A DNA stretch of 64,000 nucleotides from Puniceicoccaceae bacterium Marseille-Q1082 (lineage in GTDB: Bacteria > Verrucomicrobiota > Verrucomicrobiia > Opitutales > Intestinicryptomonadaceae): contig CAJGBI010000001.1 of NCBI GenBank assembly GCA_904424815.1, positions 1,693,671 to 1,757,670 on the forward strand, written 5' to 3'. The notes beneath the pieces are model-generated. The model was not told the origin of the DNA and searched no databases. It was given only the letters and a program-made list of their open reading frames with translations. Shown piece by piece: positions 5,563-42,333 of this stretch. Every line of letters starts with the position of its first letter. Positions within the stretch are counted from its first letter, which is position 1. The position numbers and the translations under genes were made by a program.

Positions 5563-7404
5563 ATGAAAATAAAGACAAAGACGCAGAAAAAAACCGTTCA
5601 ACCCGCCTGTATGAAGGGCGCGGACGTCGTCGTCCGGTGCCTCGAAAACGAGGGGGTTGACACCGTCTTTGCCTATCCCGGCGGCTCGTCCATAGATCTG
5701 CACAACGCCTTCACCCGCTCAAAAAAAATCCGCGTGATTCTCCCCAGGCACGAACAGGGCGGCGGCTTCATGGCGCACGGGTACGCCCGTTCGACAGGCA
5801 AAGTCGGCGTCTGCATGGTCACCAGCGGCCCGGGAGCGATGAACCTGCTTACCACAATTTCCGACGCCTTCATGGACAGCGTCCCGATGGTGGCGATAAC
5901 CGGCCAGGTATTCCAGTCGCTCATCGGCAAGAGCGCCTTTCAGGAGACCGACGTATTCGGCATGACCCTGCCGATAGTCAAGCACAGCTATTTAGTCCTC
6001 AACGCCGAAGACCTGCCCAGAATAATAAAGGAAGCCTTTATAATAGCCAAGGGCGGCAGGCCGGGACCCGTTGTGATAGACATCCCCAAGGATGTCCAGC
6101 AAAAGGTGTTCTCTCCCGATTTTGAAGCCGAGCCCGACCTCCCCGGAATCCGCCCGCCCGCCCAAGCCTCCGACGCCGACATCGCAAAAATAATGTCGAT
6201 GATAAGGGCGGCCAAGAGGCCTGTAATATACGCCGGCGGCGGGATAATATCCTCCGGCGCTTCCAAAAAGCTCGACGAATTTTCAAAAATCCTCAACATA
6301 CCCGTGGCGACAACCCTCATGGGCCTCGGCTGCGTAGATCCGATGGAGCCCAAAAACCTCTACTGGTTCGGAATGCACGGCACGTACGCGGGCAACATGG
6401 CGGTGTTTGAATCGGATTTGCTCATAGCCCTCGGCACGCGCTTTGACGACAGAATCACGGGGGCTGTGTCGAAATTCGCGCCCGAGGCGAAAATCATACA
6501 CCTGGACATCGACCTCTCCGAGCACAACAAAAACGTCAAGGTGGATTTCAGCGTGTGCGCCGAAGTCGGAGGAGCGCTTTCAAAGCTGCTCGCCGCCGCC
6601 AAAAGCGAGGCAAAAAAGCCCGACTTCTCCAAGTGGATCGCCCGCATAGGGGAGCTGAAAAAGCTCCATCCTTACCCGTTTGCGCGAAGGGAGCGCAAAA
6701 ACATCACCGCCCAGGACGCAATCGCCGAGCTCTACAAAATTTCCAGGGGCGAAATTCTCGTGACCACCGGAGTCGGCCAGCACCAGATGTGGACGCCGCA
6801 AAACTTCATATTCTCCAAGCCGCGCCAGTTCATAAGCTCTCTCGGCGCGGGGACTATGGGCTTCGGGCTGCCCGCGGCAATCGGCGTGAAAGTCGCAAAC
6901 CCGAAAGCGAGCGTCGTGAACATCGAGGGCGACGGCTCATTCCAGATGAACATTCAGGAGATGGCGACCGCCGTCGCCGAAAAAGTCCCCGTAAAGACCA
7001 TGCTGCTCAACAACCAGTTCCTCGGCATGGTCATGCAGTGGGAAGACATGCTCTACGGCGGCACGCGCGGAAACACGGTTTTGTCGCTCGACCCCGAAAA
7101 CATGGGCGGGCCCGAAAACCTCGACGCCATATATCCCGACTACTGCAAAATAGCAGACGGGTACTCGTGGGAGAGCGCGAGGGTATGGAAAAAGTCCGAC
7201 CTTCCCGCGGCAATAGAAAAAATGCTGAAATCCGAAAAGCCCTATCTGCTGGAAGTCGTCGTTGAGCACGACGAACACGTGCTGCCTTTCATTCCGCCGG
7301 GCAAGTCCACCGAGGAAATCATCGTCGAGTGCTCGAACTGCCCAAATGTTCCAACCTGCGAAATAGCAAAAAAACAAATATGCCCGAAACAAAAGAAACG
7401 GTAA
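5563..7404 (+). CDS. ilvB: Acetolactate synthase, large (catalytic) subunit
   Basis: 613 residues. Condenses two pyruvates (or pyruvate and 2-oxobutyrate) in branched-chain amino-acid synthesis, using TPP, Mg and FAD. Seen: N-terminal TPP-binding domain with the activating Glu in PRHEQG (E64), the GPGAMNLLT segment, a central FAD-type domain, and the C-terminal TPP motif GDG (456-458) to NN (483-484). The ATG at 5563 fits the family; an ATG 60 bases upstream would add an unlikely extension. No ilvN follows. The C-terminal tail is odd: it carries four cysteines (C590, C593, C599, C607; CX2CX5CX7C) and a Lys-rich end, which ordinary IlvB lacks. The last 25 bases overlap the cyclophilin gene. 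Confidence 0.93.
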
Positions 7405-7859
7405 TCCTGCACACAAACCGCGGGGACATCAAAATAAGGCTCTTCCCGAAAATAGCTCCCAAAGCCTGCGAGAACTTTGTGAAGCTCGCAGAAAAGGGGT
7501 ATTATGACGGCGTGACATTCCACCGCGTGATAAAGGGTTTCATGATACAGGGCGGCGACCCGACGGGCACCGGCTGCGGCGGGCAATCCGCATGGGGACG
7601 GCCCTTTGAGGACGAATGCGACCCGAACGTCGCATTCGACCGCCCCGGGATCCTCGCAATGGCAAACGCCGGCCCCGGAACCAACGGCAGCCAGTTCTTC
7701 ATAACGACTGTTCCGACCCCGTGGCTGCACATGCACCACACGATTTTCGGAGAAGTCGCAGAGGGCATGAACGCCGTTGAAAAAATCGAAAATTCCCCCA
7801 CGGGGCGCATGGACAAGCCCGTGGAAGACCAGAAGATAAATTCGGTCACGGTCGAATAG
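7380..7859 (+). CDS. Peptidyl-prolyl cis-trans isomerase, cyclophilin type
   Basis: 159 residues, cytosolic (no signal peptide). Catalyses proline cis-trans isomerisation. The cyclophilin core is clear: [15 protein letters not shown] with the catalytic Arg at R49 and the F/Q pair at F53 and Q57, then [16 protein letters not shown] and [10 protein letters not shown]. The ATG at 7380 lies inside the end of ilvB; the next upstream in-frame starts would only add unrelated residues. Translational coupling to ilvB is likely because the two overlap by 25 bases. Length is typical for a small bacterial cyclophilin (PpiA/PpiB type). Confidence 0.93.
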
Positions 7860-7962
7860 CCGGCATAGGCGCCCGGGAGCAAGCGTTCGGGCCGTTTCGC
7901 GCGGAGGGGCGATTTTGCCCCAAAAATTTGTTGCACAGCCCCGCCGCGCAAAATTATATTCG

Positions 7963-9168
7963 ATGGAGATGACGGACAATTTGCAGGCATCGGAATACTC
8001 GTCGGCCCGCGGTGCGAAAGTGCGCGCGCTGCTCGTCGACGACCAGAAAATCATCGCCGAAGCGGTCAAGCGGATGTTCGCCGGCCAGCCCGACATATCG
8101 CTGTTTTACTGCCCTGACCCCGCCGGCGCCATAGACGCCGCAAAAAAATGCCGCCCAACCGTCATACTCCAGGACCTCGTAATGCCCGAGGTCGACGGGC
8201 TGACCCTCGTAAAATTTTTCCGCGCCTGCCCCGAAACGCGCGATATTCCCCTCGTAGTCCTGTCCTCCAAAGAAGAGCCCGACGTAAAATACCGCGCATT
8301 CGAAAACGGTGCGAACGACTATATGGTGAAATTCCCCGACAAGCTCGAGGTTCTCGCGCGCGTGCGCTACCATTCGAGGGCGTACACGACGCTCCGCGAG
8401 CTCAACGACGCCATGGCGCGCCTCCAACAGAGCCAAAACGCCCTCAAAAAGGAGCTCGACGAGGCGGAAAACTACGTCACGAGCCTCCTGCCGGAAAAAA
8501 TCGACGATCCCGCCCTGTCGTCGGACTGGGTTTTCAAGAGCTCTACGGAGCTGGGCGGAGACTGTTTCGGGTACGGGTGGCTCGACGAAAACCGCTTTGC
8601 CGTCTATCTGCTCGACGTGTGCGGGCACGGCGTGGGCGCCGCCCTGCTCTCGGTGTCGGCAATGAACGCGCTGAGATCCCGGACTCTGTCGGGGGTCGAT
8701 TTCGGCGAGCCCGACCGGGTGCTGTGCGCGCTCAACAGCGCATTCGACATGGACTCGCAAAACGGAATGTTCTTCACCCTATGGTACGGCGTCTACGACA
8801 AATCTTCGCGCGAGCTCTCCTACGCCTCCGGCGGGCACCCGCCCGCGATTCTCGTGTCCGCCGACGGAACCTCCCGGCGCCTCACCACAAACGGCTTTAT
8901 AATAGGGGGCATGAGCCCGATGTCCTTCAAGAAGGCGTCCGTGCAAATCGCGCCGGGCTCAAAGCTCTACGTTTTCAGCGACGGCGTGTACGAAGTCGAA
9001 AAGCCCGACGGCCATACGATGTCGCTCGACGAGTTCGCCGCCGAGCTGCCCGCGCCGCCGCTGCCGGGGCTCTCAAAAGTGGAGAGCATGATGCGCTTCT
9101 CCAAAGACGCCCAGGGGCGGGAATCTTTTGAGGACGACTTCTCGCTCTGCGAAATAATTTTCAAGTGA
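7963..9168 (+). CDS. Response regulator with SpoIIE-type PP2C phosphatase output (RsbU/RssB-like)
   Basis: 401 residues. Receiver domain at about 18-145, with acidic pair D26-D27, phospho-acceptor D71 (LQDLVMP), conserved S/T-K (S102, K103) and the alpha4 switch region. A coiled coil follows (about 150-180, LNDAMARLQQSQNALKKELD), then a SpoIIE/PP2C domain. Metal ligands are in GGDCFGYGW, LLDVCGHGVGAALLS and the terminal DDFSLCEI. The protein should dephosphorylate an anti-sigma antagonist when the receiver is phosphorylated. The ATG at 7963 was chosen over a TTG 48 bases upstream; an ATG at 7969 is also possible. The adjacent anti-sigma kinase supports a partner-switching module. Confidence 0.88.
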   Translation: MEMTDNLQASEYSSARGAKVRALLVDDQKIIAEAVKRMFAGQPDISLFYCPDPAGAIDAAKKCRPTVILQDLVMPEVDGLTLVKFFRACPETRDIPLVVLSSKEEPDVKYRAFENGANDYMVKFPDKLEVLARVRYHSRAYTTLRELNDAMARLQQSQNALKKELDEAENYVTSLLPEKIDDPALSSDWVFKSSTELGGDCFGYGWLDENRFAVYLLDVCGHGVGAALLSVSAMNALRSRTLSGVDFGEPDRVLCALNSAFDMDSQNGMFFTLWYGVYDKSSRELSYASGGHPPAILVSADGTSRRLTTNGFIIGGMSPMSFKKASVQIAPGSKLYVFSDGVYEVEKPDGHTMSLDEFAAELPAPPLPGLSKVESMMRFSKDAQGRESFEDDFSLCEIIFK

Positions 9169-26689: not shown

Positions 26690-27907
26690 ATGAACGCACA
26701 ACCCATATCGGCAAACTCATACCTCCGCGCGGAGGGACGGCGGACGAGCCCCGTCAGAAACCTGCGCCCCGAAACCCTGTCGAGGGCGCTCGAAGCATTC
26801 GAAAACGGGCGACTCGGCTCCGCCGCCAGAATATTCGAGGCGATCCTCTCGCGGGACGACGCCATCTGCGGGCTGAACCTCAAACGCAAAAAGTCGGTGT
26901 CGCGCCTCGACTTTGAAATAGTCCCCCTCGAGGACTCCCCGAAAGCGCGCGAACACATGCGCACGCTGCGCGACTTTTACTCCACCCTGCGCGCAAAATC
27001 CTTCCGCGACGAAAACGAATCCGGCGGGCTGCGCCTGCTCGTAAGCCAGATGATGGACTGCGTGGCGATGAAGTACAGCGTCCACAAAATCGAATTTCAG
27101 AACGACAACGGAAGGGTCAGGGGCGTATTCACCCAATATCCTCTGTGGCTCTTCGAAAACACGCAAAAACGCCTGCGGATTCTCGAGAGGGAGGGGCAGC
27201 TCTCCGACGGCGCGGAGCTCGACCCCGACGAATGGCTTGTCACCTGCGGCGACGGGCTGATGTTCGCCTCGTCCATAGCGTACCTGTTCAAACAGCTTCC
27301 GCTGCGAGACTGGCTCATATACTGCGAGCGCAACGGAATGCCCGGGATAAAGGCGAAAACCGACGCCTTTCCCGGGACGCCCCAGTGGGAGAGCGTCTGC
27401 GACGCCGTGCGGGAATTCGGCGCGGAGTTCCACGCAGTGTTCTCCGAGGGCACGGAAATGGACGCCATCGACGTGTCGACGCGCGGAGAGCTTCCCTACC
27501 CCGCCCTCGTCGAGCGCGTGGACAGAATGATGGGCTCTCTCTGGCGCGGCGGCGACCTCTCCACTTTCAGCGCGCCAGACAGCGTGGGAGCGAACATGCA
27601 GTGGTACGAGGAATCCCTCATCGAGGAGGACGACGCCGCCAACGTCGCCGAGACGCTCAACCGCAAAATCGACGCTGCCGTGGTAAGGCTCGCGCACGGG
27701 GATCCGGTTGCGCTGGCTAAGTTCAGGCTGAAGCTCCCCGACTACGAAGAGCGCAAACACGAGCTCGAAATAATCGAAAGGCTCTGCGCCATCGGCTTGA
27801 AGCCCGACCCGACGGAACTTGCGCGCCACTTCGCCTTCCCGCTGGAAGGCGCCGGAAAATCCGCGAAAAAAACCGGAACGAAAGACGCAGATGAAGGCGA
27901 AATTTGA
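26690..27907 (+). CDS. Mu gp29-like phage portal protein (DUF935)
   Basis: 405 residues. Portal proteins form the dodecameric DNA gate of a phage head. The N-terminal half has the DUF935 pattern: FEAILSRDDAICGLNLKRKK (first portal helix region), LVSQMMDCVAMKYSVHKIEF, and WLVTCGDGLMFASSIAYLFKQLPLRDWLIYCERNGMP, with the typical W-x-x-YCERFG-like loop. The C-terminus is acidic and helical. It is about 100 residues shorter than Mu gp29 (about 512), missing part of the C-terminal crown region. First gene of the cassette; no terminase precedes it. The start ATG at 26690 follows a 172-base divergent gap. Confidence 0.8.
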   Translation: MNAQPISANSYLRAEGRRTSPVRNLRPETLSRALEAFENGRLGSAARIFEAILSRDDAICGLNLKRKKSVSRLDFEIVPLEDSPKAREHMRTLRDFYSTLRAKSFRDENESGGLRLLVSQMMDCVAMKYSVHKIEFQNDNGRVRGVFTQYPLWLFENTQKRLRILEREGQLSDGAELDPDEWLVTCGDGLMFASSIAYLFKQLPLRDWLIYCERNGMPGIKAKTDAFPGTPQWESVCDAVREFGAEFHAVFSEGTEMDAIDVSTRGELPYPALVERVDRMMGSLWRGGDLSTFSAPDSVGANMQWYEESLIEEDDAANVAETLNRKIDAAVVRLAHGDPVALAKFRLKLPDYEERKHELEIIERLCAIGLKPDPTELARHFAFPLEGAGKSAKKTGTKDADEGEI

Positions 27908-28667
27908 CAAACCCCTAGTCCAGGTTCTCAGCCCCTACGGGGAATGGCCGCACAGGCTCGGGATGCAGCTCGTGGACGAAAAGTCGCTCGAGAGCATGAA
28001 GAGCGCCGCCAGATTCTCCGCGCTCGTCGGCTGCGGGATTCCCGTATACGTCGGGCACCCAGACGAGTCCCCGCGCTCCAAGGCGCGCCCCGTGGGGAAA
28101 ATATCGCGCATATTCTCGCTCGGCGACGGCATCGGCGTGGAGGCGAAATATACGGAGGAGGCCTTCCGGAAAATCTCGTCGGGCAAGCTGAAATCCATGT
28201 CGCCGCGCTGGAGGATGCAAAAGCTTCCGGACGGGCGGTTCCGGCCAATAAAGCTCATATCGGCGGGGCTTACGAACAACCCCAACATTCCGGAGAGCGG
28301 GCGCGTGGTGGGCGCGCTCCCCGCCGGCCTAAGCTCCGCAAGGGCTCGGGCTGAAAAAGCGGAGGAAATATCGCGCCGCGCAAAATCCGCCGCGGAGCGC
28401 GCGCAAAAATGCTCCGAGTCCGCGCGCAGGCTCGGCGAGCTGTCGCGCGCGGCGACGGTGGAAGCCCGCATGAGGCTCGCAAAACCCCCCGCAAAAACCG
28501 GCGGCGGCGAAAGCCTCAACCCCGCTCCGAAAAAAATCTCCCCGAGGGAGATGGCCGACCTCGCCGCACGCCGCTCGGAAGAGCTCGGCGAACCCTACTC
28601 AAAGAGCTTTGCCGCCATACGAAGGCAGTTCGCATTTCACAACCCCCAAACAAAAGGAATAAAATGA
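27891..28667 (+). CDS. Phage head protease/scaffold, Mu I-like
   Basis: 258 residues from the ATG at 27891, overlapping the portal stop by 17 bases. Mu-like I protein features: an N-terminal domain with VGCGIPVYVGHPDE, GVEAKYTEEAFRKISSGKLKSMSPRWRMQ and ISAGLTNNPNIPES, the segment that places the protease domain's conserved Thr-Asn-Pro. The C-terminal half (about 150-230) is Ala/Glu/Arg-rich and helical, as expected for a scaffold released on cleavage. It would mature the capsid made by the downstream genes. Confidence 0.75.
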   Translation: MKAKFDKPLVQVLSPYGEWPHRLGMQLVDEKSLESMKSAARFSALVGCGIPVYVGHPDESPRSKARPVGKISRIFSLGDGIGVEAKYTEEAFRKISSGKLKSMSPRWRMQKLPDGRFRPIKLISAGLTNNPNIPESGRVVGALPAGLSSARARAEKAEEISRRAKSAAERAQKCSESARRLGELSRAATVEARMRLAKPPAKTGGGESLNPAPKKISPREMADLAARRSEELGEPYSKSFAAIRRQFAFHNPQTKGIK

Positions 28668-29356
28668 AGCAAACCAAAAACATTGCCGCTGCGGCCCTCC
28701 GCGCAATCGCCGGAGCCCGACGCGGCGGCCCCGCCTTCTGCAACATCGCCGAAGGCACCCACGCGGGTTCCGTGACCATGAGGGCAGCGGAAGCCGTGGA
28801 CTCTCAAAACCTGCTCGTGGCGGCCGGCGAAAACGACGGAGAGTTCGTCGTCGCCTCCGCCTCCAAAAAGCCGATAGGCGTGTGCCTCGACGAGGGCGCC
28901 AAGGGAGACTCCGTAAGCGTCGCCCTCCCGGGGTGCGCTGAGAGCACCTTCGTGTGCCGAACCTCCGCCAACGTCTCTGCGGGAGACTCGCTCTACGCCT
29001 CGGCGGGCGGCAAGGTCAGCCCCGTCGCCGGCGACGGAGCCTACAAGGTCGGCGTCGCCCTCTGCTCGGCGGCGGCCGGATGCCCCGTAGAAATCGACCC
29101 GCAAGGCTTCGGCGAGCGCGCCTGGCAGGTGCACTCATGCGGGCTGTACGTCTGGACGGGCGCAACCTCGTCCGAAACACTCGCCTCGGGAGAGCTCGGC
29201 GAGGGCGACATAGCGTTCGCCTCCATCGCGGCTGCCGGAGGCTCGGAAAAGTCGGTGTCCGCCATCGTGTCGGACGGCGGGATAACGTTCTCGCTCGACG
29301 CCGCGGGGACGGCTTCGTCCACTAAAATCGCGTGGATGGTTCTGCGCAAAAACTAA
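28664..29356 (+). CDS. Probable capsid decoration protein
   Basis: 230 residues; the ATG overlaps the protease stop (ATGA). Beta-rich, Gly/Ala/Ser-rich sequence with VAAGENDGEFVVASASKKPIGVC, then EGAKGDSVSVALPG and ANVSAGDSLYASAGGKVSP: short beta strands of the DUF2190/lambda gpD decoration type. An about 80-residue C-terminal beta-rich extension (WQVHSCGLYVWTGATSS onwards) is unlike classical gpD and may be an extra surface domain. Its place between protease and major capsid genes is the usual one. Confidence 0.6.
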   Translation: MKQTKNIAAAALRAIAGARRGGPAFCNIAEGTHAGSVTMRAAEAVDSQNLLVAAGENDGEFVVASASKKPIGVCLDEGAKGDSVSVALPGCAESTFVCRTSANVSAGDSLYASAGGKVSPVAGDGAYKVGVALCSAAAGCPVEIDPQGFGERAWQVHSCGLYVWTGATSSETLASGELGEGDIAFASIAAAGGSEKSVSAIVSDGGITFSLDAAGTASSTKIAWMVLRKN

Positions 29357-29368
29357 AAGGAAAACTCA

Positions 29369-30289
29369 ATGCCCGAAATAACGACAGCAAACGAAAACAG
29401 GTTTTCGGCCGGCAACTATTCCGAGGCGCTCACCGCCTTCACGGTCGGCTGGGCCGATCCCGAAAACACCTCCAAACTCCTCGACTTCATCGCCCCTCCC
29501 ATAGCGGTCGGCAGAAGGTTCGAGTTTAAAAAGAGCGACAACGCCCAGGCGTTCTACTCCGAAAGCGACGACGTGCGCGCGGTGGGCGCGGAATTCAAGC
29601 GCGTCAGCTACTCCGGCGAGTCGGTTAACGAAAAAACCATCAACAAGGGCCTCACCATACGCGTCGACCACGACGAAGTGGCGGGCGACGACTGGCAGGA
29701 GAGGTACGTGCAGATGCTCCTGCAAAGGCTTCTGCGCAACGAGCTCCGCAGGGCGGTTGCCGCCATCGACGCCATTGCCGCCGCGGACGAGTCCCCCAAG
29801 GCGTGGGACGCCGACTCCAACCCAGACGCCGACATCCGCGAAATGCTGATGCTCGCAGCCGACGAGAGCGGCGTGCGCCCCAACCGCCTGCTCTTCGGCG
29901 AGAGCGCGTGGGACCTGCGCATGACGGCGCTCGAATCCCAGAACAGCGCGGTCGCCTTCAAGGGAGCGGCCATGGCGAAGGACGAGCTCGCCGGCAAGTT
30001 CATGCTCGACGCATGCGAAGTGCTGTCGTCGCGCTACCAGTCGGCGCCCGACGCGAAGAGCAAAATCCTCGGTGACTGCGTATTCGCCTTCTACGCGCAG
30101 AATTCGCTCTCAAAGGACGAGCCCTCGAACCTCAAACGGTTCTACACGCCGACGGAGGAGGGCGGAGCGTTCAGGGTGTACTGCGACGAGCGCGCCAAGT
30201 ACACCGACATCACCGTCGAACACTATTCGAGCATCGTGGCAACGAGCTCGCTCGGCGTTCGCAAACTCTCGGTCAAGAAAGGAGCGTAA
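29369..30289 (+). CDS. Phage major capsid protein
   Basis: 306 residues. The start has a usable RBS (AAAAGG about 9 bases ahead). Mu gpT/lambda gpE-like HK97-fold features: N-terminal arm with FTVGWADPENTSKLLDFIAPP, RFEFKKSDNAQAF, KGLTIRVDHDEVAGD and RYVQMLLQRLLRNELRRAV (spine helix), with SGVRPNRLLFGESAWDLRM and ILGDCVFAFYAQN in the A domain. Near typical length, with no internal stop or frameshift. It should assemble into the head shell if expressed. Confidence 0.75.
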   Translation: MPEITTANENRFSAGNYSEALTAFTVGWADPENTSKLLDFIAPPIAVGRRFEFKKSDNAQAFYSESDDVRAVGAEFKRVSYSGESVNEKTINKGLTIRVDHDEVAGDDWQERYVQMLLQRLLRNELRRAVAAIDAIAAADESPKAWDADSNPDADIREMLMLAADESGVRPNRLLFGESAWDLRMTALESQNSAVAFKGAAMAKDELAGKFMLDACEVLSSRYQSAPDAKSKILGDCVFAFYAQNSLSKDEPSNLKRFYTPTEEGGAFRVYCDERAKYTDITVEHYSSIVATSSLGVRKLSVKKGA

Positions 30290-30337
30290 CAAAAACGCGG
30301 GGGGCGGTTCCGCCGTCCCCCGCCCCGATTTCCCGAA

Positions 30338-30787
30338 ATGGACTGGATAAACCTTAAAACATCCGACCTCGAATGCGCGCTTAACAAGCCGCAGCTCGAG
30401 ATACTCAAAGCGCAGTCGCTGAAATCCCCCGGGAGGGAGCCCGCCGCCGAAATTCTCGACTCCGTAGTCGTGCGCATCCGCGCGGAGGTTGCGGCGTCGG
30501 GGCTGAACGCCATCGACCCCGACCACTCGCGGATTCCGCCGGAACTGAAAGAATGCGCCCTGCGGCTGGCGGCGGAGGCGCTGCAAACGCGGCTTCCGCA
30601 GATGGAGCTGACCGACAGGCAGTGCAGGCTCGCTGACGAGGCGAGGGAAACGCTCGCGCGGGTGGCGCGGGGAGAGCTGCCGGTGAGTTCTCCGCTCTTC
30701 GGGGTGCGCACGGGCCTGCCCAGGAAGGGCGCGAACTTCGGGGCCGCGCGGCGCGTGGCGACGAGAAAATCCACACGGGGGCTCTGA
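30338..30787 (+). CDS. Putative head-tail connector protein
   Basis: 149 residues. Predominantly helical: SDLECALNKPQLEILKAQ, DSVVVRIRAEVAASG, and PPELKECALRLAAEALQTRLPQ followed by TDRQCRLADEARETLARV. The middle pattern (residues chained as helix, loop Asp-Pro, helix) resembles gp36/gp6-like connectors of the DUF1320 type, which act as the adaptor on the portal. The basic C-terminal tail (RRVATRKSTRGL) is unusual. Assignment rests mainly on position behind the capsid gene. Confidence 0.5.
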   Translation: MDWINLKTSDLECALNKPQLEILKAQSLKSPGREPAAEILDSVVVRIRAEVAASGLNAIDPDHSRIPPELKECALRLAAEALQTRLPQMELTDRQCRLADEARETLARVARGELPVSSPLFGVRTGLPRKGANFGAARRVATRKSTRGL

Positions 30788-30788
30788 C

Positions 30789-31217
30789 ATGGGAACGCTC
30801 GAACGCCTGCAAAGGGCCGTGTGCGAAATGCTGAGGTCGCTGAACGACCTGAAATTCGCGTATATCCGCGCCGACGGCGACCTGTCCGAAACCGAAAGCG
30901 GATCGCCCGAAGGGATAGAAATAAGGGTGATGAAGCCAATGCCGACTTCCGCGTCAAAATACGCCGCGGGGCCGACGTTCTCAAACGTAGAGCTAAGGGT
31001 CGAAGCCGAGCGCGCGAAATTCGCCGCCCCGAACGCGCCCTCGCTGCTGACCGCGTGCGAGATAGTCTCTCGCGCGCTGCACGGGGCGAACGCGCCCGTC
31101 GAGTGCGGATACGGAAGGATATCCCTCGCCGAAAACTCTCCGTGGAGCGAGTCAAAATGCGGCTCGCAGTCCGAAAAGATAACAATGCGCTTCTGCGCCC
31201 AGTCCGTCCTCCAATGA
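30789..31217 (+). CDS. Putative head-tail completion or tail-terminator protein
   Basis: 142 residues, starting one base after the previous stop. A mixed alpha/beta pattern (helix 1-17, strand KFAYIRADG, GIEIRVMKPMPTS, helix LTACEIVSRALHGA, then strand KITMRFCAQSV) fits the small tail-terminator folds at this place in phage modules. No strong motif. ATGA overlap with the next gene supports one translational unit. Confidence 0.45.
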   Translation: MGTLERLQRAVCEMLRSLNDLKFAYIRADGDLSETESGSPEGIEIRVMKPMPTSASKYAAGPTFSNVELRVEAERAKFAAPNAPSLLTACEIVSRALHGANAPVECGYGRISLAENSPWSESKCGSQSEKITMRFCAQSVLQ

Positions 31218-31600
31218 AAATAAGCATATCGCAGACGCAGCTCAACGCGAACGGCGAGGAGCCCAAAAACCTGCTCGTGCGCACGAAGCGCTCGACAAAA
31301 ACGGAGGCGGCGATAAACTCCGCGAACGCGCTCGTGTTCGACCGCGGCAACTCGTCGGTGACGGCGACGTTCGAAATCGAGAGGGCGCATCCCACGCCCG
31401 GGGACGCCGAGGTCTTCGCGCTCTCGCACGCGGCGCAAATAGAGGCCCTGCTGCCGGCGGACCTCGAATTTTGCGCGCCCGAAACCGGAAAGGCGGTTTC
31501 ATTGTCAGACTGCGCGCTCTCCGAAATCCGCGTGTCGGCAAACGGCGCGATAACGAACTCCAAATACGAATTCAAGGCAAGAAAGGCGTCGCATGAATAG
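31214..31600 (+). CDS. Unknown protein of the capsid cassette
   Basis: 128 residues. Beta-rich: MKISISQTQLNANGEEPKN, NALVFDRGNSSVTATFEIERAH and SEIRVSANGAITNSKYEFK. This alternation is compatible with a tail-tube-like or minor virion beta sandwich but is not recognisable by motif. It starts inside the preceding stop (ATGA) and overlaps the following microprotein gene by eight bases, so it belongs to the same operon. Confidence 0.55.
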   Translation: MKISISQTQLNANGEEPKNLLVRTKRSTKTEAAINSANALVFDRGNSSVTATFEIERAHPTPGDAEVFALSHAAQIEALLPADLEFCAPETGKAVSLSDCALSEIRVSANGAITNSKYEFKARKASHE

Positions 31601-31742
31601 CGAGGAAATTGAAAGGATAGTGGACTCCGCGCTCGACGAAATCCGCAGGCAGCTCGACGCGCTCGAAAAAAGCGTCGCCGACGCGGAGGCGGCAATCGCG
31701 GAAATATCTTCGCAGCTCGAAACCCTCAAATCGGGAATGTAA
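31593..31742 (+). CDS. 49-residue coiled-coil microprotein
   Basis: ATG at 31593, TAA at 31740-31742. Nearly every residue lies in an amphipathic heptad pattern (IERIVDSALDEIRRQLDALE, then a second stretch with IAEISSQLETLKSG), with no signal peptide or membrane segment. It starts within the preceding gene and ends two bases before the 580-residue gene. A small homo-oligomeric coiled coil could be a chaperone, stopper or fibre-foot subunit; no known family is recognised. Confidence 0.65.
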   Translation: MNSEEIERIVDSALDEIRRQLDALEKSVADAEAAIAEISSQLETLKSGM

Positions 31743-31744
31743 AA

Positions 31745-33487
31745 ATGAAATACTTCATACGCCGCGGCGGAACAGACGCGCCGTTTTCGGAGCTGACGCT
31801 CTCGGGCGCAAAAATAACGCGCAAAAAGTCGGCGGCAGACGAATTCCGCGCAGTCTTCGCCGACCCCTCGAAAGCCGCCGGATTTTCCACCGGAGAAACT
31901 ATCGAAGTGTACGCGGGCCAAAAGCGCAAGTTCAGGGGCAGAATCGCACGGCTGGACGCAAAGCTCGGCGGCGCGGACGACTCCGTGGAAATCGTCGCCA
32001 AGGGGCCGTGGTTCGACCTCGAAAGCATCGTCTACCAGCAGACATGGAAGGCCGCGCGAATCAGCGAATCCGGAGCGGCCGTGCTGGAGGACTGCCAAAG
32101 GAGCAAAGTAGTGCTCGGGCAAAACTCGCAGTCGCAGAAAGTCGGCGTCGCCGGCCAGCTCGCGGACATTTTCGGATACGCGGTTTCAAAGGGCGCGGAA
32201 TTTTCCGTAGGCGAGATAGTCGCCGACGCCGAAATGCCCCTCGACGAGGCAAAAGACCTAACATGCGCGGAAGCCGCGGCGCGCGTTCTCAAATGGCTGC
32301 CCGACACGGGCGCGCACTTCGACTACTCGTCGGGCGCGCTGCCGGAGCTCTCGGTCCTTCCGCGCTCCGAACTCCCCTCCAAGACGATAGACCTGTCCTC
32401 GGGGCTCGTTAAGAGCGTCAAAGTGGGCTCTCGCCCCGACCTCGCGGTATCGGCGGTTTCGATAAAATACGAGAGCGAACACTCCGACGGCGCAAATTCG
32501 TGGCTCACCGTAGAAGAGGACAACTACCCGCCAGACGCCGCATACGGCGGCAGAAACGCCGTCGTCATGAGCGTCGAGCTCGCGGGAATGAAGGGCTCCT
32601 GCCAGATATACGAGATCGAATGCCGCAGCATACAGCCAAACAGCGCGCAGTGGTGGCGCGACAGAATACCCGCGCTCTCCGACGCCGAAGACCTCGAAGT
32701 GCTCTCTTCAAAAAGGCAGGACGACTCCGAGGACCTTCCGCGCTTTCTCGTCTCCGGCACAATACACCCGTCGATGAATTTTCTCGCCTCCCGCGAGCGC
32801 GTGGACGCCGTCGTGCAGTACACGGACAAAAGCGGCTCCGTCGTGAAAAGGGAAATCGGCGTGCGGTTTGTCACCACCAACGCCGTCACCGGCACCTACG
32901 CGGTGCGCTCCACGTCGCAGTACGCCGAACCCGTGCCGTCGGGCCTCGCCAAAGCCGTGTACGACGCCGCAAGCGCAATGCAGTACGAGGGCTCCGCCGA
33001 AATTTTCGGGGCTGACGCCGACGATTTCGCCGCCGCAAAAATCCGCATATCGGGCGGGCGGAGCGAATGGGAAACGATGGATTCGCCCGTGTGCTCAACG
33101 GTCGAGGATCTCGAAAGCGGCACGCTCACGGTAAAGTTCGGCCCGCCGACACACCTGTATCCGGACAGGATTTCGGAGATGTTCAGAATCGGCAGGCCGC
33201 GCGTCGTGCCGTACTCAAACAACTCCAAGAGCGGGGGCATATCCGCGGCAAACAGGGTGTATTTCTCCGGAATGGACTCCGAAAGCGACGGCGGGCAGGG
33301 AGACGCGGAATACTCCAAGCTCGTCGTGAAATCGGCGGAAGAGGAGGAAACCCCGGGGTCGATAGAGCTCGACGCCCAGTCGCTCGACGGAAAGGGCGCG
33401 GCGAAAATGCGCGAAATATACGTCGTCAAAAACGCGAAGCTCGCCAAGGCGGACGCCCTAATGACCGAGCCTGTGGAGGTGGAATAG
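31745..33487 (+). CDS. Putative tail-hub/baseplate-like protein
   Basis: 580 residues. The N-terminal 70 residues (YFIRRGGTDAPFSELTLSGA, FRAVFADPSKAAG, TIEVYAGQKRKFRGRIARLD) resemble the first beta domain of hub proteins such as gpD or gp44-like: oligosaccharide-binding-like barrels with G-x-I-x-R. The middle (LADIFGYAVSKGAEFS, AEAAARVLKWLPDTGAHFDY) matches the hub pattern in which a short segment reports a search for a local coordinate origin. Beyond residue 300 it is unlike the usual hub and contains beta-rich segments of unknown kind. No lysozyme domain is seen. Confidence 0.5.
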   Translation: MKYFIRRGGTDAPFSELTLSGAKITRKKSAADEFRAVFADPSKAAGFSTGETIEVYAGQKRKFRGRIARLDAKLGGADDSVEIVAKGPWFDLESIVYQQTWKAARISESGAAVLEDCQRSKVVLGQNSQSQKVGVAGQLADIFGYAVSKGAEFSVGEIVADAEMPLDEAKDLTCAEAAARVLKWLPDTGAHFDYSSGALPELSVLPRSELPSKTIDLSSGLVKSVKVGSRPDLAVSAVSIKYESEHSDGANSWLTVEEDNYPPDAAYGGRNAVVMSVELAGMKGSCQIYEIECRSIQPNSAQWWRDRIPALSDAEDLEVLSSKRQDDSEDLPRFLVSGTIHPSMNFLASRERVDAVVQYTDKSGSVVKREIGVRFVTTNAVTGTYAVRSTSQYAEPVPSGLAKAVYDAASAMQYEGSAEIFGADADDFAAAKIRISGGRSEWETMDSPVCSTVEDLESGTLTVKFGPPTHLYPDRISEMFRIGRPRVVPYSNNSKSGGISAANRVYFSGMDSESDGGQGDAEYSKLVVKSAEEEETPGSIELDAQSLDGKGAAKMREIYVVKNAKLAKADALMTEPVEVE

Positions 33488-33488
33488 C

Positions 33489-34151
33489 GTGAAGAGGTTC
33501 GTATTTCCGTCGCCCTTCCCGACCCCGCCGAAAGAAGAGGCCGTCGCCGAGGGCGAAACGGCGCTCGGGCCGTTCACGCTCGCGGAAGCCGTGCGCGTGT
33601 TCTGGTCGCTCAAAAGCCTCGACCTCGATATGTCGATTTCGGTTAAATATTCCGCGGGCGACACCGTTTACGCCGACGTCGACGAGCGCTACGACGACCT
33701 CCGCCCCTCCGCGAATTGCACGGCGAGCCTCGAGCCGTATAAAAGGTGCGCGGCAAACGGCGTGTCGCTGCTTGCGATGGAGAGGGAAAAATACACGCCG
33801 CACTACGGGTTCACGGTGTACTATCCCATAATGCTTCCGGAGGAAAACCCTCCGGAGGACTACGCCGAAAGAATGTTCGCCTTTCCGCTCAACATATATT
33901 TCGGCGAAGATCTGATGCTGCTTTCAAGCTCCGCTCTATACGGGCCCGAACACCTGCTCGACCTTTATTCAAAAGTGCCCATAACGATTTTCGGCAAGAC
34001 TACTGAAATCTTCCTGCTCGCCAGCAAATCGCTCACCGAGGCGCCGTCGGAAGTGTCGGTGTCCTATTCCGCGACGGCCTCCATAACGCCGGTGTTCGAC
34101 GAATCCGAACCGGAGCCCGAAAACGGGGAAGATGGGGAAAGCGCCGGCTGA
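33489..34151 (+). CDS. Unknown last protein of the capsid cassette
   Basis: 220 residues, GTG start one base after the previous stop. It has a Pro-rich N-terminus, a helix (LAEAVRVFWSLKSLDLDM), several beta strands (ISVKYSAGDTVYADVDERY, HYGFTVYYPIMLPEE) and a very acidic C-terminal tail (ESEPEPENGEDGESAG). No signal peptide. No family recognised. Being terminal in the operon, it may be a tail-tip, fibre-attachment or cargo protein; this is speculation. Confidence 0.55.
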   Translation: MKRFVFPSPFPTPPKEEAVAEGETALGPFTLAEAVRVFWSLKSLDLDMSISVKYSAGDTVYADVDERYDDLRPSANCTASLEPYKRCAANGVSLLAMEREKYTPHYGFTVYYPIMLPEENPPEDYAERMFAFPLNIYFGEDLMLLSSSALYGPEHLLDLYSKVPITIFGKTTEIFLLASKSLTEAPSEVSVSYSATASITPVFDESEPEPENGEDGESAG

Positions 34152-34186: not shown

Positions 34187-34218
34187 AAAAAAAGCGCGGA
34201 GGATTCAATCCCCCGCGC
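34187..34218 (-). terminator. Terminator of the 519-residue PEP-CTERM gene
   Basis: Ten-base-pair stem with one mismatch (GCGCGGAGGA/TCCCCCGCGC, loop TTCAA) followed on the minus strand by seven T. It separates the capsid cassette from the PEP-CTERM genes and could also stop the cassette transcript weakly. Confidence 0.8.
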
Positions 34219-35997: not shown

Positions 35998-37107
35998 CTA
36001 AAATTGTTTCATTCTTCTCTGCGCGGCCAATATAAGCGCGAACGCCCCCAACGCCGCGGCTATCGCCGCCGGCTCCGGAATTACCGTAAGCGTCAGGGTT
36101 TGCCCGTCCCACGCAAAACTGTACTCCAGCCCGTAGGCGTCGAATATGTCCGCGCGCAAGTCGAAGTCCGAAAGCCCGCTGTCCGCAAAGCCCTCGGACC
36201 ACTCGTCAACATACACTATCTTGTACTCGCCGGCGGCGATATTTTCGGGGTTCACCATCCCGAAATCCACAGTTATCGCGTCGCCAGCGTTTTTGCGCGC
36301 CGTCCCCAGCGAATATATCGCCGTCTCGAGCGGGTCGAGCTTCCCGACGTTCAAAACCAGAGCCGTTTTTCCGCCCTCCTTGGTATTCGTTATCCGCGTG
36401 CTCGCAAAATCCGTCTTGTACGCGTATATGTTAACGGTCAGATCGAGAACGTCTTCGCGCATATTGAAAGCGTCCGCCGACACGCTGTCTATAAAGCCGT
36501 CGTAGGAACCCACGTCAAGATTGCATGCCTGCGCCCCGGGGCAGGTGAGCGTAAAATTTCCGGAGACGTTTATGTTCACTCTGCCCGCGGTCGTCTTCGC
36601 AAAATATACATGGGCTATCTGCGACAGCGTAAGCGAAGCAAGATTGAGGTTTATCTCTTCGGCGTCCGCGAAATTGACGTTCACGCGGTCGTTTATTCTA
36701 ACGCTCATATTGTGCGCCGTAAAACTGTCGGTGAAAACCAAAGTTTTGGGTTCGATTGTAGAGCCGCCGAACGCCACAGAGCCGTCGGATTGCACCTCTC
36801 CGATCTTGTACCTGTTTATGATGACGTCGGAATCCGCCGTTATGCCCTGCGACTGGTCGGCGTCTATCGCTCCCGCCGCATGGTTTCCCTTGTCCAGAGT
36901 TATCCTGTCGTCGGTACCTTCGGGAAAGACGTAAAACTCCCAGTTGTCGCCGGAGCCGTTGTAAGTCGAAAACCGTTTCCAGAGGCTCATGTCGTTTACG
37001 TTTTGCTCTCCGGACGGAGCCATAAAGAAAAACGTGTCGGCGGAGGCGAAAACCGCCGAAAAATGCAACAACGCCAGAGAAAGGGAAAGCGCGAATTTTG
37101 TTCTCAT
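35998..37107 (-). CDS. PEP-CTERM sorted surface protein
   Basis: 369 residues from the ATG at 37105-37107; an in-frame start 14 codons upstream is less likely. Signal peptide (MRTKFALSLSLALLHF, then ASADT), a beta-rich body with Asn/Asp repeats, and the C-terminal VIPEPAAIAAALGAFALILAAQRRMKQF: PEP box, hydrophobic helix, basic end. Two cysteines at the FTLTCPGAQACNLD segment may form a disulfide. It lies next to another PEP-CTERM gene but is separated from it by a terminator, so each has its own transcript end. Confidence 0.83.
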   Translation of the reverse strand: MRTKFALSLSLALLHFSAVFASADTFFFMAPSGEQNVNDMSLWKRFSTYNGSGDNWEFYVFPEGTDDRITLDKGNHAAGAIDADQSQGITADSDVIINRYKIGEVQSDGSVAFGGSTIEPKTLVFTDSFTAHNMSVRINDRVNVNFADAEEINLNLASLTLSQIAHVYFAKTTAGRVNINVSGNFTLTCPGAQACNLDVGSYDGFIDSVSADAFNMREDVLDLTVNIYAYKTDFASTRITNTKEGGKTALVLNVGKLDPLETAIYSLGTARKNAGDAITVDFGMVNPENIAAGEYKIVYVDEWSEGFADSGLSDFDLRADIFDAYGLEYSFAWDGQTLTLTVIPEPAAIAAALGAFALILAAQRRMKQF

Positions 37108-37457
37108 AACAATATCCGAATATAAAATACCTTTAATAATGTCAAGCAATTATTTTTAACGGTTGCCCCTCCCTTATTATTTCTTTTCCGGAAATGAAAA
37201 ATTTTCGGTTTCTCCTCCCCGCAAAACCTGTCCGCATTCGCACACTGGAAATTCCGGCGCCGTTCGCGGTCGGCTTTTACGCGCGGCGCACAACGAGCCG
37301 TCCCGCGGCAAGCCGGGTTTTGGGAAAAAAATTTCAAAGCATTCCGCACGCGCCGCAGCCCGTCCCTCCGCGCCCGCGGCGACCGCGCGCAAACAGCCCC
37401 CATAAACAAGCGGCGGCTCTCCTCCCCTCGCGAATCCGCCGCGCAAAACAAAAAACG
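37108..37457. other. 350-base intergenic region, no supported gene
   Basis: Lies between two minus-strand genes and should hold the promoter of the 369-residue PEP-CTERM gene. AT-rich near 37110-37210, then GC-rich. The open frames here have weak starts and shadow-like composition. No hairpin or repeat of note is seen. Confidence 0.5.
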
Positions 37458-40524: not shown

Positions 40525-40560
40525 CCTCTCGGGCGCATGCGCCGGAATTTAAAACAGACT

Positions 40561-40591
40561 GCGGGCGCCTTATCGGGGGCCCGCTTTTTTT
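40561..40591 (+). terminator. Rho-independent terminator after eno
   Basis: GCGGGC/GCCCGC stem, extended inside by two pairs after a mismatch, followed by TTTTTTT. It lies 37 bases after the eno stop and before the PEP-CTERM protease gene. Confidence 0.75.
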
Positions 40592-40704
40592 ATCCCGCGC
40601 GCGGTAGGATTCCCGCGCCGCATGGGGCGCCAAAAAAAGAAATTTCAAATCCGGTGTTGACCGCCGCGCAATTCAAAAAGTACAGTCGCGCCTCAAAAAC
40701 ATTT

Positions 40705-42333
40705 ATGAAATTTGCGGATCCCATCTTCAATATAACCCGCCGCGCGGCGGCGATTGCGGCGGCATGCCTGCTTTCGGGGCGGCTCTTCGCCGCCGTGTGC
40801 GAAATGCCCGATTCTTCGCTTCTGAATTTGGCGGAATTCACCGGAGCGGACGCCTTCTACCGGATCGGAATCTACGGGCAGGGGGCAAACGTCGCCAATT
40901 TGGAATACTACTCGGTTTCCGAGGAGGAAGCGCCCGAGTATTCCGTTTTTCTGAAAGGCTCAAACTACTCGACTTACATGCCGGAGGGAACGTCGGGGCG
41001 GTACGGGTCGGTTCATCCGTACGAAACCCTCTCTGTCATGGCGGGATACAACGAATCCTACGAAAACCAGGAAGTATCGACGGGAATCGCGTGGCGGGCG
41101 AACTATACCGCGGGGCAAGTCGCCGAGGACGGGCTCTTCACCTCCGACAGGCTCACCCTCCAAACCTACGAAAAATTCTTTTCAAACGGCGCGGACGTGA
41201 TTTCGTCGTCTTTCAAAAACTCGGGGGAAAGCGCATTCATGGCGGGGGCGGTCTTGGACTCTTACGCCGCAAAAAATACGCGGACGGTTTTTGTCGGGGC
41301 GGCGTCGAACAACGGCGACGAGGGTCCGGGAAACGTCGCTTCGCCGTACAGGAACGTGAACGTCATAAAAGTCGGAGCCCTCGACATCTCCACGGGCTTC
41401 AAAACCGCGGCGGCCTTCAGCTCCTACGGCCCCAACGACTTTTACAACCCCATAACGGGCGAAACCGTAAAGGGCGCCGTGAGCGCCGTTGACATATCGG
41501 CGCCCGGCACCGTGTACACAGTAAAACAGGACGGAAGCCTCGGCAACGTCTCGGGGACGAGCTTCGCCGCCCCGATAGTATCATCTGCGGTCGCGCTGAT
41601 GGTCTCGTATTCCAAGGAGGCTTCAATGCCGGACGACAGCAGGGACGCGAGGCTGATAAAAGCCGTGCTATTGAACTCGGCGTCTAAAACGGACGGCTGG
41701 GACAACGGCAGCCGTTTGGAATCCGCGACGGTAAACGGCAAAACATACGGGGGAGTTCTCTCGACGAGCCAGGCTCTCGACTACCATTCGGGCGCGGGCG
41801 CGCTGAACGCGGAAGAAGCCCTTGCGCAATACGGCAGCTTCGGAGAGACTTCGTTTCTCGAGAGCGCCGGCAAAGGGGAGTCGGTTTTCTACGATTTCAG
41901 CGCGGCGGCCAATCTGGAATTTGCCGCCACACTGTGCTGGAATGTGGGCGCGGAAATAGACGGCGTAACGTACGACGGCAGCGGCAACGTGTCGGCGATA
42001 AGCGCGGAAAACTCGCATTTTTCCAACCTCGACCTGCGCCTCTGGTATCTGGGCGGCGGCGGGGAAATTCTCGTGGCGCAATCGGTTTCGGAATACAACA
42101 ATGTGGAACACCTGTTCCTGGAACTCGAACGGGAGGGGGAATACAGGCTTGAAGTGGCGTTCAAAGACCTGGTTTACGGAGACGCCGAAAGCGAAACTTT
42201 CGCGGTAGCGTGGAATGTCTCCCAAATACCGGAACCGTCGGTCTGCGCGGCGCTTCTGGGGGCGGCCTCACTCGCCTTCGCCGCCCGCATGAAAGCGAAA
42301 TTTTCAAGCGGCTCAAACGTCCGCCGCCGCTAA
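40705..42333 (+). CDS. PEP-CTERM anchored subtilisin-like (S8) serine protease
   Basis: 542 residues. Signal peptide (basic/Ala-rich, SGRLFAA), S8 domain at about 45-330, a beta domain, and a C-terminal IPEPSVCAALLGAASLAFAAR PEP-CTERM tail. The catalytic Ser is clear in SGTSFAAP (S286). A histidine sits in GSVHPYETLSVMAG (H104) where HGT normally lies. The Asp usually found as VIDTG is instead VANLE (E67), so the acid is Glu or the triad is altered. NNG near AASNNGDEG supplies a plausible oxyanion Asn. It should act at the cell surface, perhaps processing other surface proteins. Confidence 0.83.
   Translation: MKFADPIFNITRRAAAIAAACLLSGRLFAAVCEMPDSSLLNLAEFTGADAFYRIGIYGQGANVANLEYYSVSEEEAPEYSVFLKGSNYSTYMPEGTSGRYGSVHPYETLSVMAGYNESYENQEVSTGIAWRANYTAGQVAEDGLFTSDRLTLQTYEKFFSNGADVISSSFKNSGESAFMAGAVLDSYAAKNTRTVFVGAASNNGDEGPGNVASPYRNVNVIKVGALDISTGFKTAAAFSSYGPNDFYNPITGETVKGAVSAVDISAPGTVYTVKQDGSLGNVSGTSFAAPIVSSAVALMVSYSKEASMPDDSRDARLIKAVLLNSASKTDGWDNGSRLESATVNGKTYGGVLSTSQALDYHSGAGALNAEEALAQYGSFGETSFLESAGKGESVFYDFSAAANLEFAATLCWNVGAEIDGVTYDGSGNVSAISAENSHFSNLDLRLWYLGGGGEILVAQSVSEYNNVEHLFLELEREGEYRLEVAFKDLVYGDAESETFAVAWNVSQIPEPSVCAALLGAASLAFAARMKAKFSSGSNVRRR

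Follow-up and report, generated by a model that had tools for sequence, protein, structure and literature searches.

Why a bacterial chromosome should hold an intact set of phage head genes with no terminase gene beside it is the question raised by a window of 64,000 nucleotides (the whole stretch of DNA analysed here, C1:1693671-1757670) from Puniceicoccaceae bacterium Marseille-Q1082, whose genome, G000, comprises 2.70 Mb in three contigs. Ten consecutive genes, P1 to P10, form the cassette in question (C1:1720360-1727821; Table 1), for which the initial annotation had left three readings standing: a prophage remnant kept under selection, a gene transfer agent (GTA)-like element or a domesticated particle. 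The evidence prefers a GTA-like element over a remnant, and the most probable reading, if by no means a certain one, is that the cassette belongs to a GTA-like element of the Opitutales/Puniceicoccales (Verrucomicrobiota) with a stub tail, which would package host DNA and transfer it to other cells. The ten-gene arrangement itself is not due to chance, since both homology and gene order are conserved in relatives.

The missing terminase was part of the initial description, which is true of the window and not of the genome. A genome-wide search for packaging genes, proposed at the time as a check, yielded two Terminase_6N matches, at C1:24890 and C1:96395, both outside the window, so that the idea of an element with no terminase was dropped. 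The first match belongs to a separate Mu-like prophage, while the second falls in the large terminase of the element (C1:96329-97687), which has ATPase and nuclease parts (Terminase_6N, Terminase_6C) and closes a block at C1:95105-97687, where it is preceded by a membrane/coiled-coil protein, a winged-helix protein matching phrog_436 (E 3e-7) and a candidate small terminase, so named from its position and without a family match. This block is flanked by genes for a 3-keto-disaccharide hydrolase and an HU-like protein; its distance to the cassette is 1.62 Mb as measured on the contig, or at least 138 kb if the contig ends meet. Residues E25-K26, D126-E127, D279, D334 and D419 of the large terminase are invariant in 46 relatives, as are H56, S104 and other residues of the P2 protease in an alignment of 48 sequences (G072, G052, G065 and G047 being excluded from both); the terminase residues are presumably functional motifs.

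A search for the same gene order in relatives with no terminase nearby was another of the proposed checks. Examples from eight other families (f20, f5, f21, f10, f26, f27, f7 and f25) have the terminase immediately 5' of the portal gene, and in an example from f28 (G051) terminase and cassette are on different contigs. Within the genus of the window, the terminase of G004 and G008 lies about 2-3.4 kb upstream of the cassette on the opposite strand, and the 20 kb round the terminase of G002, G003, G007, G009, G014 and G016 hold no cassette genes, bar two weak decoration-profile matches (G014, G016). Since the terminase adjoins the portal gene in other families but not in that of the window, the two blocks were separated in the latter.

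Inheritance of the element largely with its host is supported by a comparison of trees built from concatenated capsid, terminase and portal proteins with trees of the host RpoB. RpoB was sought in 60 genomes and obtained in 47, of which 31 also had long enough capsid, terminase and portal sequences; without the prophage-like G072 (n=30), the element tree and the RpoB tree have 22 of 27 splits in common, against a mean of 0.21 and a maximum of 3 in 1000 trials with permuted labels. All 17 element splits with support of at least 0.9 occur in the RpoB tree, 20 of the 23 supported RpoB splits occur in the element tree, and the distance correlation reaches 0.784 (at most 0.229 when permuted). With G072 included (n=31), 17 of 28 splits are common, the supported ones are recovered at 16/17 and 16/21, and the correlation is 0.643. 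In the capsid tree, the element forms a clade of 81 members (support 0.959), outside which fall the prophage copy of G000 itself and the other prophage copies tested.

The chromosomal surroundings point the same way, as the cassette occupies one orthologous place in the genus, with upstream neighbours common to G000, G002, G007 and G009 and downstream neighbours common to G002, G003, G004, G007, G008 and G009. Capsid homologues were found in 66 of 133 genomes, the terminase in 56 and P9 in 47, counts that take in the genome itself, weak matches and prophage copies. Within the genus, capsid and terminase occur together in 12 of 13 relatives; the thirteenth, G010, was dropped as a case of true loss, having given no capsid, terminase, P9, tube-sized gene or RpoB candidate. 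The best capsid identity drops with kinship, from 69-82% in the genus to 65-75% elsewhere in the family and, for the most part, 44-66% elsewhere in the order, and prophage-like matches form a tail at 27-41%. Among the matches listed, all titles of the 79 named loci but one ("uncultured bacterium") are Opitutales, Puniceicoccales or other Verrucomicrobiota, and three come from cultured carriers, Cerasicoccus frondis, C. maritimus and C. arenae. The element is retained in genomes as small as 0.8-1.1 Mb. In an RpoB tree of 71 genomes, every sampled member of f1, f7, f20 and f25-f28 has a capsid match, f4, f5 and f21 include members with and without one, and in several families the matches are absent or only weak, a pattern which fits early presence followed by losses; transfer between families is also conceivable. 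Searches of 50,697 phage records and 72,556 plasmid records gave no match to the capsid. Some contigs filed as viruses in IMG/VR (L188/L307, L189/L323, L190, L207 and L208) carry the gene order of the chromosomal element or parts of it, and are probably misfiled host fragments.

Selection was assessed as the ratio of nonsynonymous to synonymous changes (dN/dS), one of the checks first suggested for this locus, by in-house Nei-Gojobori counts in five species pairs with dS mostly below 1, pairs including G000 being saturated. The core genes are under purifying selection in the pairs measured, as supported by values of 0.03-0.27 for the capsid, 0.07-0.16 for the portal, 0.06-0.21 for the terminase and 0.06-0.19 for the protease, with 0.27-0.48 for the decoration protein (four pairs) and, for comparison, 0.03-0.06 for RpoB (the four pairs having it). 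In the single low-dS pair with both genes, P9 gives 0.055 and P7 0.11. Internal stops are absent from the terminase matches and, bar one prophage copy, from the capsid matches; among the P9 matches, that of G013 runs across a stop in one row. The argument of the initial annotation that intact frames speak against simple decay is borne out, with neither the broken frames nor the relaxed selection of a decaying remnant, and its terms "kept under selection", "GTA-like" and "domesticated" all agree with the single orthologous place, the host-like phylogeny and the low dN/dS.

The Mu-like prophage mentioned above, located at about 17.9-44.5 kb of C1 (L033, L034) and outside the window, offers a contrast within the same genome. 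Its terminase, portal and capsid are 54%, 34% and 41% identical to those of the element, and it has partners for P2, P3, P5, P6 and P7 (profile matches of 99.9% for P5, at the equivalent position, 95.5% for P6 and 96.8% for P7), whereas the P9 and P10 profiles match none of its genes. Unlike the element, it further carries genes for a repressor-like protein, a minor head protein of phrog_220 and a tape measure of 1081 residues (phrog_28, E 5e-4), together with a tube-sized gene and a DNA-methylase-like gene, the latter named by reading the sequence. Along 20,891 bases the prophage is 100% identical to IMG/VR contig 2914150438_000001, and between G000 and G007 it is 83% identical in DNA over 8.4 kb, as compared with 68-69% in the alignable parts of the cassette; it has moved between species more recently than the cassette. 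The prophage has a G+C content of 0.547, below the 0.595 of the window, and the cassette (0.621) and the terminase block (0.628) lie above it. In another genome, G106, equal-scoring phage-like membrane-protein matches recur at C1:4479484, 4515204, 4550924 and 4586644, spaced by exactly 35,720 bases, which is either a tandem prophage array or an assembly repeat.

The comparison with this prophage also bears on the tail. Its tube-sized gene (about 333 residues), a candidate tail tube by position and size and without a family match, sits between the partners of P6 and P7, which in the cassette overlap by four bases. A tblastn search of 118 loci from relatives detected neither this gene nor the tape measure, while the prophage minor-head gene and a 193-residue gene were confined there to L167-L169 and two G047 loci, and a profile of the tube-sized gene found it in 6 of 133 genomes (G000, G002, G007, G008, G009 and, weakly, G072). 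For P9, first called hub-like, PHROGs and Pfam are silent, but its relatives lie in phage tail regions, with 27 loci in IMG/VR (some being the element itself) and a 23% identical relative in two Akkermansia phages. On 10 of 12 closely read contigs bearing P9, an open reading frame (ORF) of 427-938 residues ends where P9 starts; PHROGs assigned two of eight such proteins to tape measures and one to a spanin-like family, the rest giving nothing informative, and the tape measure annotated in Akkermansia phage Chambord follows the P9 relative instead. Likewise, on 10 of 21 contigs with P7 an ORF of 200-480 residues ends right before it (one being L323, a copy of the element). The proposal that the prophage tube-sized gene belongs to the family preceding P7 in other phages was rejected at a profile probability of just 52%.

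In the cassette, the place of a tape measure before P9 is taken by the 49-residue P8. Of 44 loci, a few of them near-identical, 34 have a proline-free, charged ORF of the P8 type that ends just 5' of P9, whereas control sites gave 0/75 (P5), 0/31 (P6), 1/51 (P7), 2/95 (capsid), 0/5 (P10), 2/71 (portal) and 3/81 (decoration). Such ORFs precede P9 in most loci even with a fibre gene upstream, and the suggestion that P8 replaced a fibre gene in the family of the window alone was discarded. An ordinary profile search with P8 against 723 phage ORFs gave no significant match. A matrix of its C-terminal motif was applied to 17 phage contigs with 14 non-redundant tape-measure candidates (ORFs of at least 400 residues), a test designed after the ends had been seen and hence not blind, in which, compared with the ends of 473 other ORFs, 10 of the 14 scored above 95% of them and 8 above 99% (Mann-Whitney p 3e-8), and in 8 of the 14 the end outscored every internal window of its own protein; the tape measure of the G000 prophage scores low. 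Because P8 holds the tape-measure place before P9 and resembles these ends, it is probably the tip-binding C-terminal end of a tape measure.

Taken together, a course of events can be proposed in which an ancient capture from a Mu/B3-type phage would have given rise to the element. The cell would express the cassette and the terminase block together under some condition, and the terminase would fill heads with pieces of host DNA rather than with the whole element, because its two places lie so far apart. Particles with a very short tail would then be released by lysis, for which a membrane protein of phrog_38283 is a possible release gene: it is encoded upstream of the terminase in f20, f10, f26 and f21 and on other contigs in f5, occurs in 22 of 133 genomes, G000 not among them, and is 97-98% identical among three genomes of the genus Cerasicoccus. 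The P9 tip protein, joined by a fibre protein in other families, would dock on kin cells, which would import the delivered DNA through the ComEC channel and recombine it. ComEC is present in 18 of 20 carriers, which is only permissive for DNA delivery; the RcGTA model, as given in the available part of PMC7296036, ends with uptake of the DNA via the competence system. More tentatively, and with somewhat less conviction than for the GTA-like reading as such, the element may represent an independent, order-wide GTA lineage older than the marine/gut/reduced-genome (0.8-1.1 Mb) split, in which the tube gene was lost and the tape measure cut to its C-terminal, tip-binding 40-57 residues, turning a long-tailed phage into a short-tailed or tailless DNA carrier.

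Several observations weigh against the GTA-like reading. The element is known here from its genes, particles, packaged DNA and transfer being deduced from them, and neither the cassette nor the terminase block has recognised genes for integration, replication or lysis. Single-gene trees share fewer splits with RpoB (14 for capsid, 18 for terminase and 20 for portal, each of 27), and the element data reject the exact RpoB topology (log-likelihood difference 40.1; p 0.003 in the approximately unbiased test, with 5000 replicates, flagged as few); three permuted trees are far worse, with differences of 6752-8381. In a class-wide capsid profile search, 27 of 286 genomes were positive, and 14 of the 27 matches, some of them strong, lie outside the order. 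In the examples from f20, f5 and f21, P6, P7 and P9 were not found in the vicinity of the head genes, save P6 in one f21 genome. Several IMG/VR contigs and G047 sit inside the element capsid clade, so that some exchange with phages is possible, and G047 (f4; L149, L053) is mosaic-looking, combining an element-like capsid (56%) with a different, distant terminase and the 193-residue prophage-type tail gene. Finally, P7 reaches a dN/dS of 0.69 in G004/G008, probably an artefact, since 260 residues were aligned for a gene of about 130, so that sequence outside the gene is likely to have inflated the value.

A particle made from these genes might instead serve another job, as an intracellular DNA-packing head, a decoy or a toxin-like particle against kin, with no DNA delivered to recipients. 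Such a use would suit the lack of a tube-sized gene and a full tape measure beside the cassette, and the Cerasicoccus-like family, where P6, P7 and P9 were not found either; the intact terminase with portal and protease nevertheless indicates DNA packaging, and contact with other cells is suggested by the retention of P9 across f1, f7, f10 and f25-f28 and of fibre genes in several families, which leaves a domesticated particle of this kind unlikely. The chances are smaller still that the loci are what is left of related prophages, captured independently of one another or in slow decay, and that their conserved look comes from repeated infection of the order by the same phages. In favour of this, about half of the relatives searched are without the element, related true prophages share the same genomes and G047 looks mosaic; against it stand the host-like trees, the single place in the genus, the intact frames, the low dN/dS and the closer G000/G007 identity of the prophage (83% over 8.4 kb, versus 68% for the cassette). 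A slow, still infectious phage lineage with its remaining genes elsewhere in the genome is hardly credible: although the position of the terminase shows that the gene set can be scattered, and the element is present on some IMG/VR contigs, one phage-sized head cannot take in two blocks at least 138 kb apart, and phage and plasmid records hold no match to the capsid.

The GTA-like reading can also be set against the six GTA features listed in the available part of PMC9662315. Caudoviricete-derived proteins are recognisable in Portal_Mu, Phage_cement_2, the PHROGs head families and Terminase_6N/6C; full endogenisation, often at several loci, corresponds to the chromosomal cassette and its separate terminase block; and mostly vertical inheritance or co-diversification is found, though not with the exact RpoB topology. 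As for a genome of its own that cannot be fully packaged, the genes lie together in other families, and complete self-packaging from the two loci of G000 is very unlikely. The others are packaging of mostly random host DNA and its delivery to other cells. If the GTA-like reading is true, it adds an independent GTA from a different phylum, retained even where the genome is down to about 1 Mb, which would bear on why cells keep such devices, and the pared-down tape measure would show how a phage tail can be removed with its tip kept. The cultured Cerasicoccus carriers make this testable.

As for the layout of the cassette, all ten frames are open, co-oriented and closely spaced, as first described, with four overlaps between neighbours (17, 4, 4 and 8 bases) and a largest gap of 48 bases. 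The initial names of portal, protease, decoration and capsid proteins are backed by profile matches, while convincing family matches in PHROGs and Pfam are absent for P5-P10, P8 weakly matching many coiled-coil families. Profile searches of the PDB gave one chance-level match for P9 (E 0.86), none for P7 and a weak one for the capsid (3bjq, E 0.014). The 5' side is occupied by a minus-strand gene, followed by galactokinase-, UDP-glucose epimerase- and UDP-sugar pyrophosphorylase-like genes, named by reading their sequences, and the 3' side by another minus-strand gene, which a terminator-like hairpin at 34194-34218, reading on the minus strand, fits. Promoter and terminator scans were not used, given 5 promoter-like sites against 1.1 expected and 12 terminator-like sites against 15.7. 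Elsewhere in the window, two secreted-looking proteins (35998-37149, minus strand, and 40537-42333, plus strand) end in what we take to be a PEP-CTERM-like C-terminal sorting tail.

Table 1. Genes of the cassette, in window positions, with the evidence for each assignment.
Gene	Position	Strand	Assignment	Evidence
P1	26690..27907	+	Mu-type portal protein, 405 aa	Portal_Mu E 2.3e-54; phrog_113 8e-19; alignments of relatives begin here
P2	27891..28667	+	Mu I-like head maturation protease/scaffold	phrog_328 E 7.7e-6; Mu-like_Pro under cut-off
P3	28664..29356	+	Head decoration (cement) protein	Phage_cement_2 E 6e-8; phrog_673 3e-13
P4	29369..30289	+	Major capsid protein	phrog_1005 E 1e-9; homologues in relatives
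P5	30338..30787	+	Candidate head-tail connector	phrog_195 at E 0.1; profile match to own prophage
P6	30789..31217	+	Candidate tail-completion/terminator protein	Role from position; prophage profile match
P7	31214..31600	+	Tail-associated protein; prophage counterpart comes after tube-sized gene	Prophage profile match
P8	31593..31742	+	Coiled coil, 49 aa; proposed C-terminal tape-measure remnant	Position, C-terminal motif
P9	31745..33487	+	Tail-tip (hub-like) protein, 580 aa	Relatives in IMG/VR phages and two Akkermansia phages
P10	33489..34151	+	Final gene of the operon, fast-evolving	Relatives recognised mainly inside the family of the window

Among the closest known systems are Mu/B3-like transposable phages, with which the element shares a Mu-type portal and packaging genes of Mu/B3 type: its large terminase is 54-56% identical over 92-93% to those of Pseudomonas phage B3, Microcystis phage Mwe-Yong1 and Sinorhizobium phage Aussie. 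The order small genes, terminase, portal, protease and capsid resembles what we take to be that of Mu. Unlike a Mu-like prophage, however, the element has no transposase, repressor, lysis or full set of tail genes recognised by PHROGs or Pfam among the ten genes and the four-gene block, and its capsid is unmatched in phage records. Closer to the host, scaffold_15 of Candidatus Marcellius (Opitutales) was described as a "defective prophage" and read as a degraded remnant (PMC6920513, available part); with two Mu-like proteins, a large terminase and short unknown flanking genes with matches in Verrucomicrobia, it is, judged from this description, probably the same element.

GTAs have been shown experimentally in alphaproteobacteria, a sulfate reducer, a methanogen and a spirochete, according to the available part of PMC9662315, and GTA activity has been reported in gut Oscillospiraceae and Ruminococcaceae (PMC12946183), in a main text which, as far as available, mentions neither "Verrucomicrob" nor "Opitut". 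The full-text literature, a scope outside which preprints and most subscription papers fall, gave no GTA report for Opitutales or Puniceicoccales, and among the matches listed for Verrucomicrobia GTA literature no title or beginning of an abstract concerned such an element. A described counterpart is RcGTA with its relatives, the Rhodogtaviriformidae, to which the element is unlikely to belong, judged from its Mu-type portal and B3-type terminase. The element also occurs in another phylum, and its gene transfer is a proposal. The RcGTA tail includes a tube and a tape measure, a trimer that ends close to the baseplate (PMC7296036, available part), whereas no tube-sized gene or full tape measure adjoins the cassette. 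In both, nevertheless, phage-derived head, portal, protease and terminase genes reside in the chromosome at more than one locus, autonomous replication genes are not recognised, and the genes co-diversify with their host (PMC9662315, PMC7296036, as far as available).

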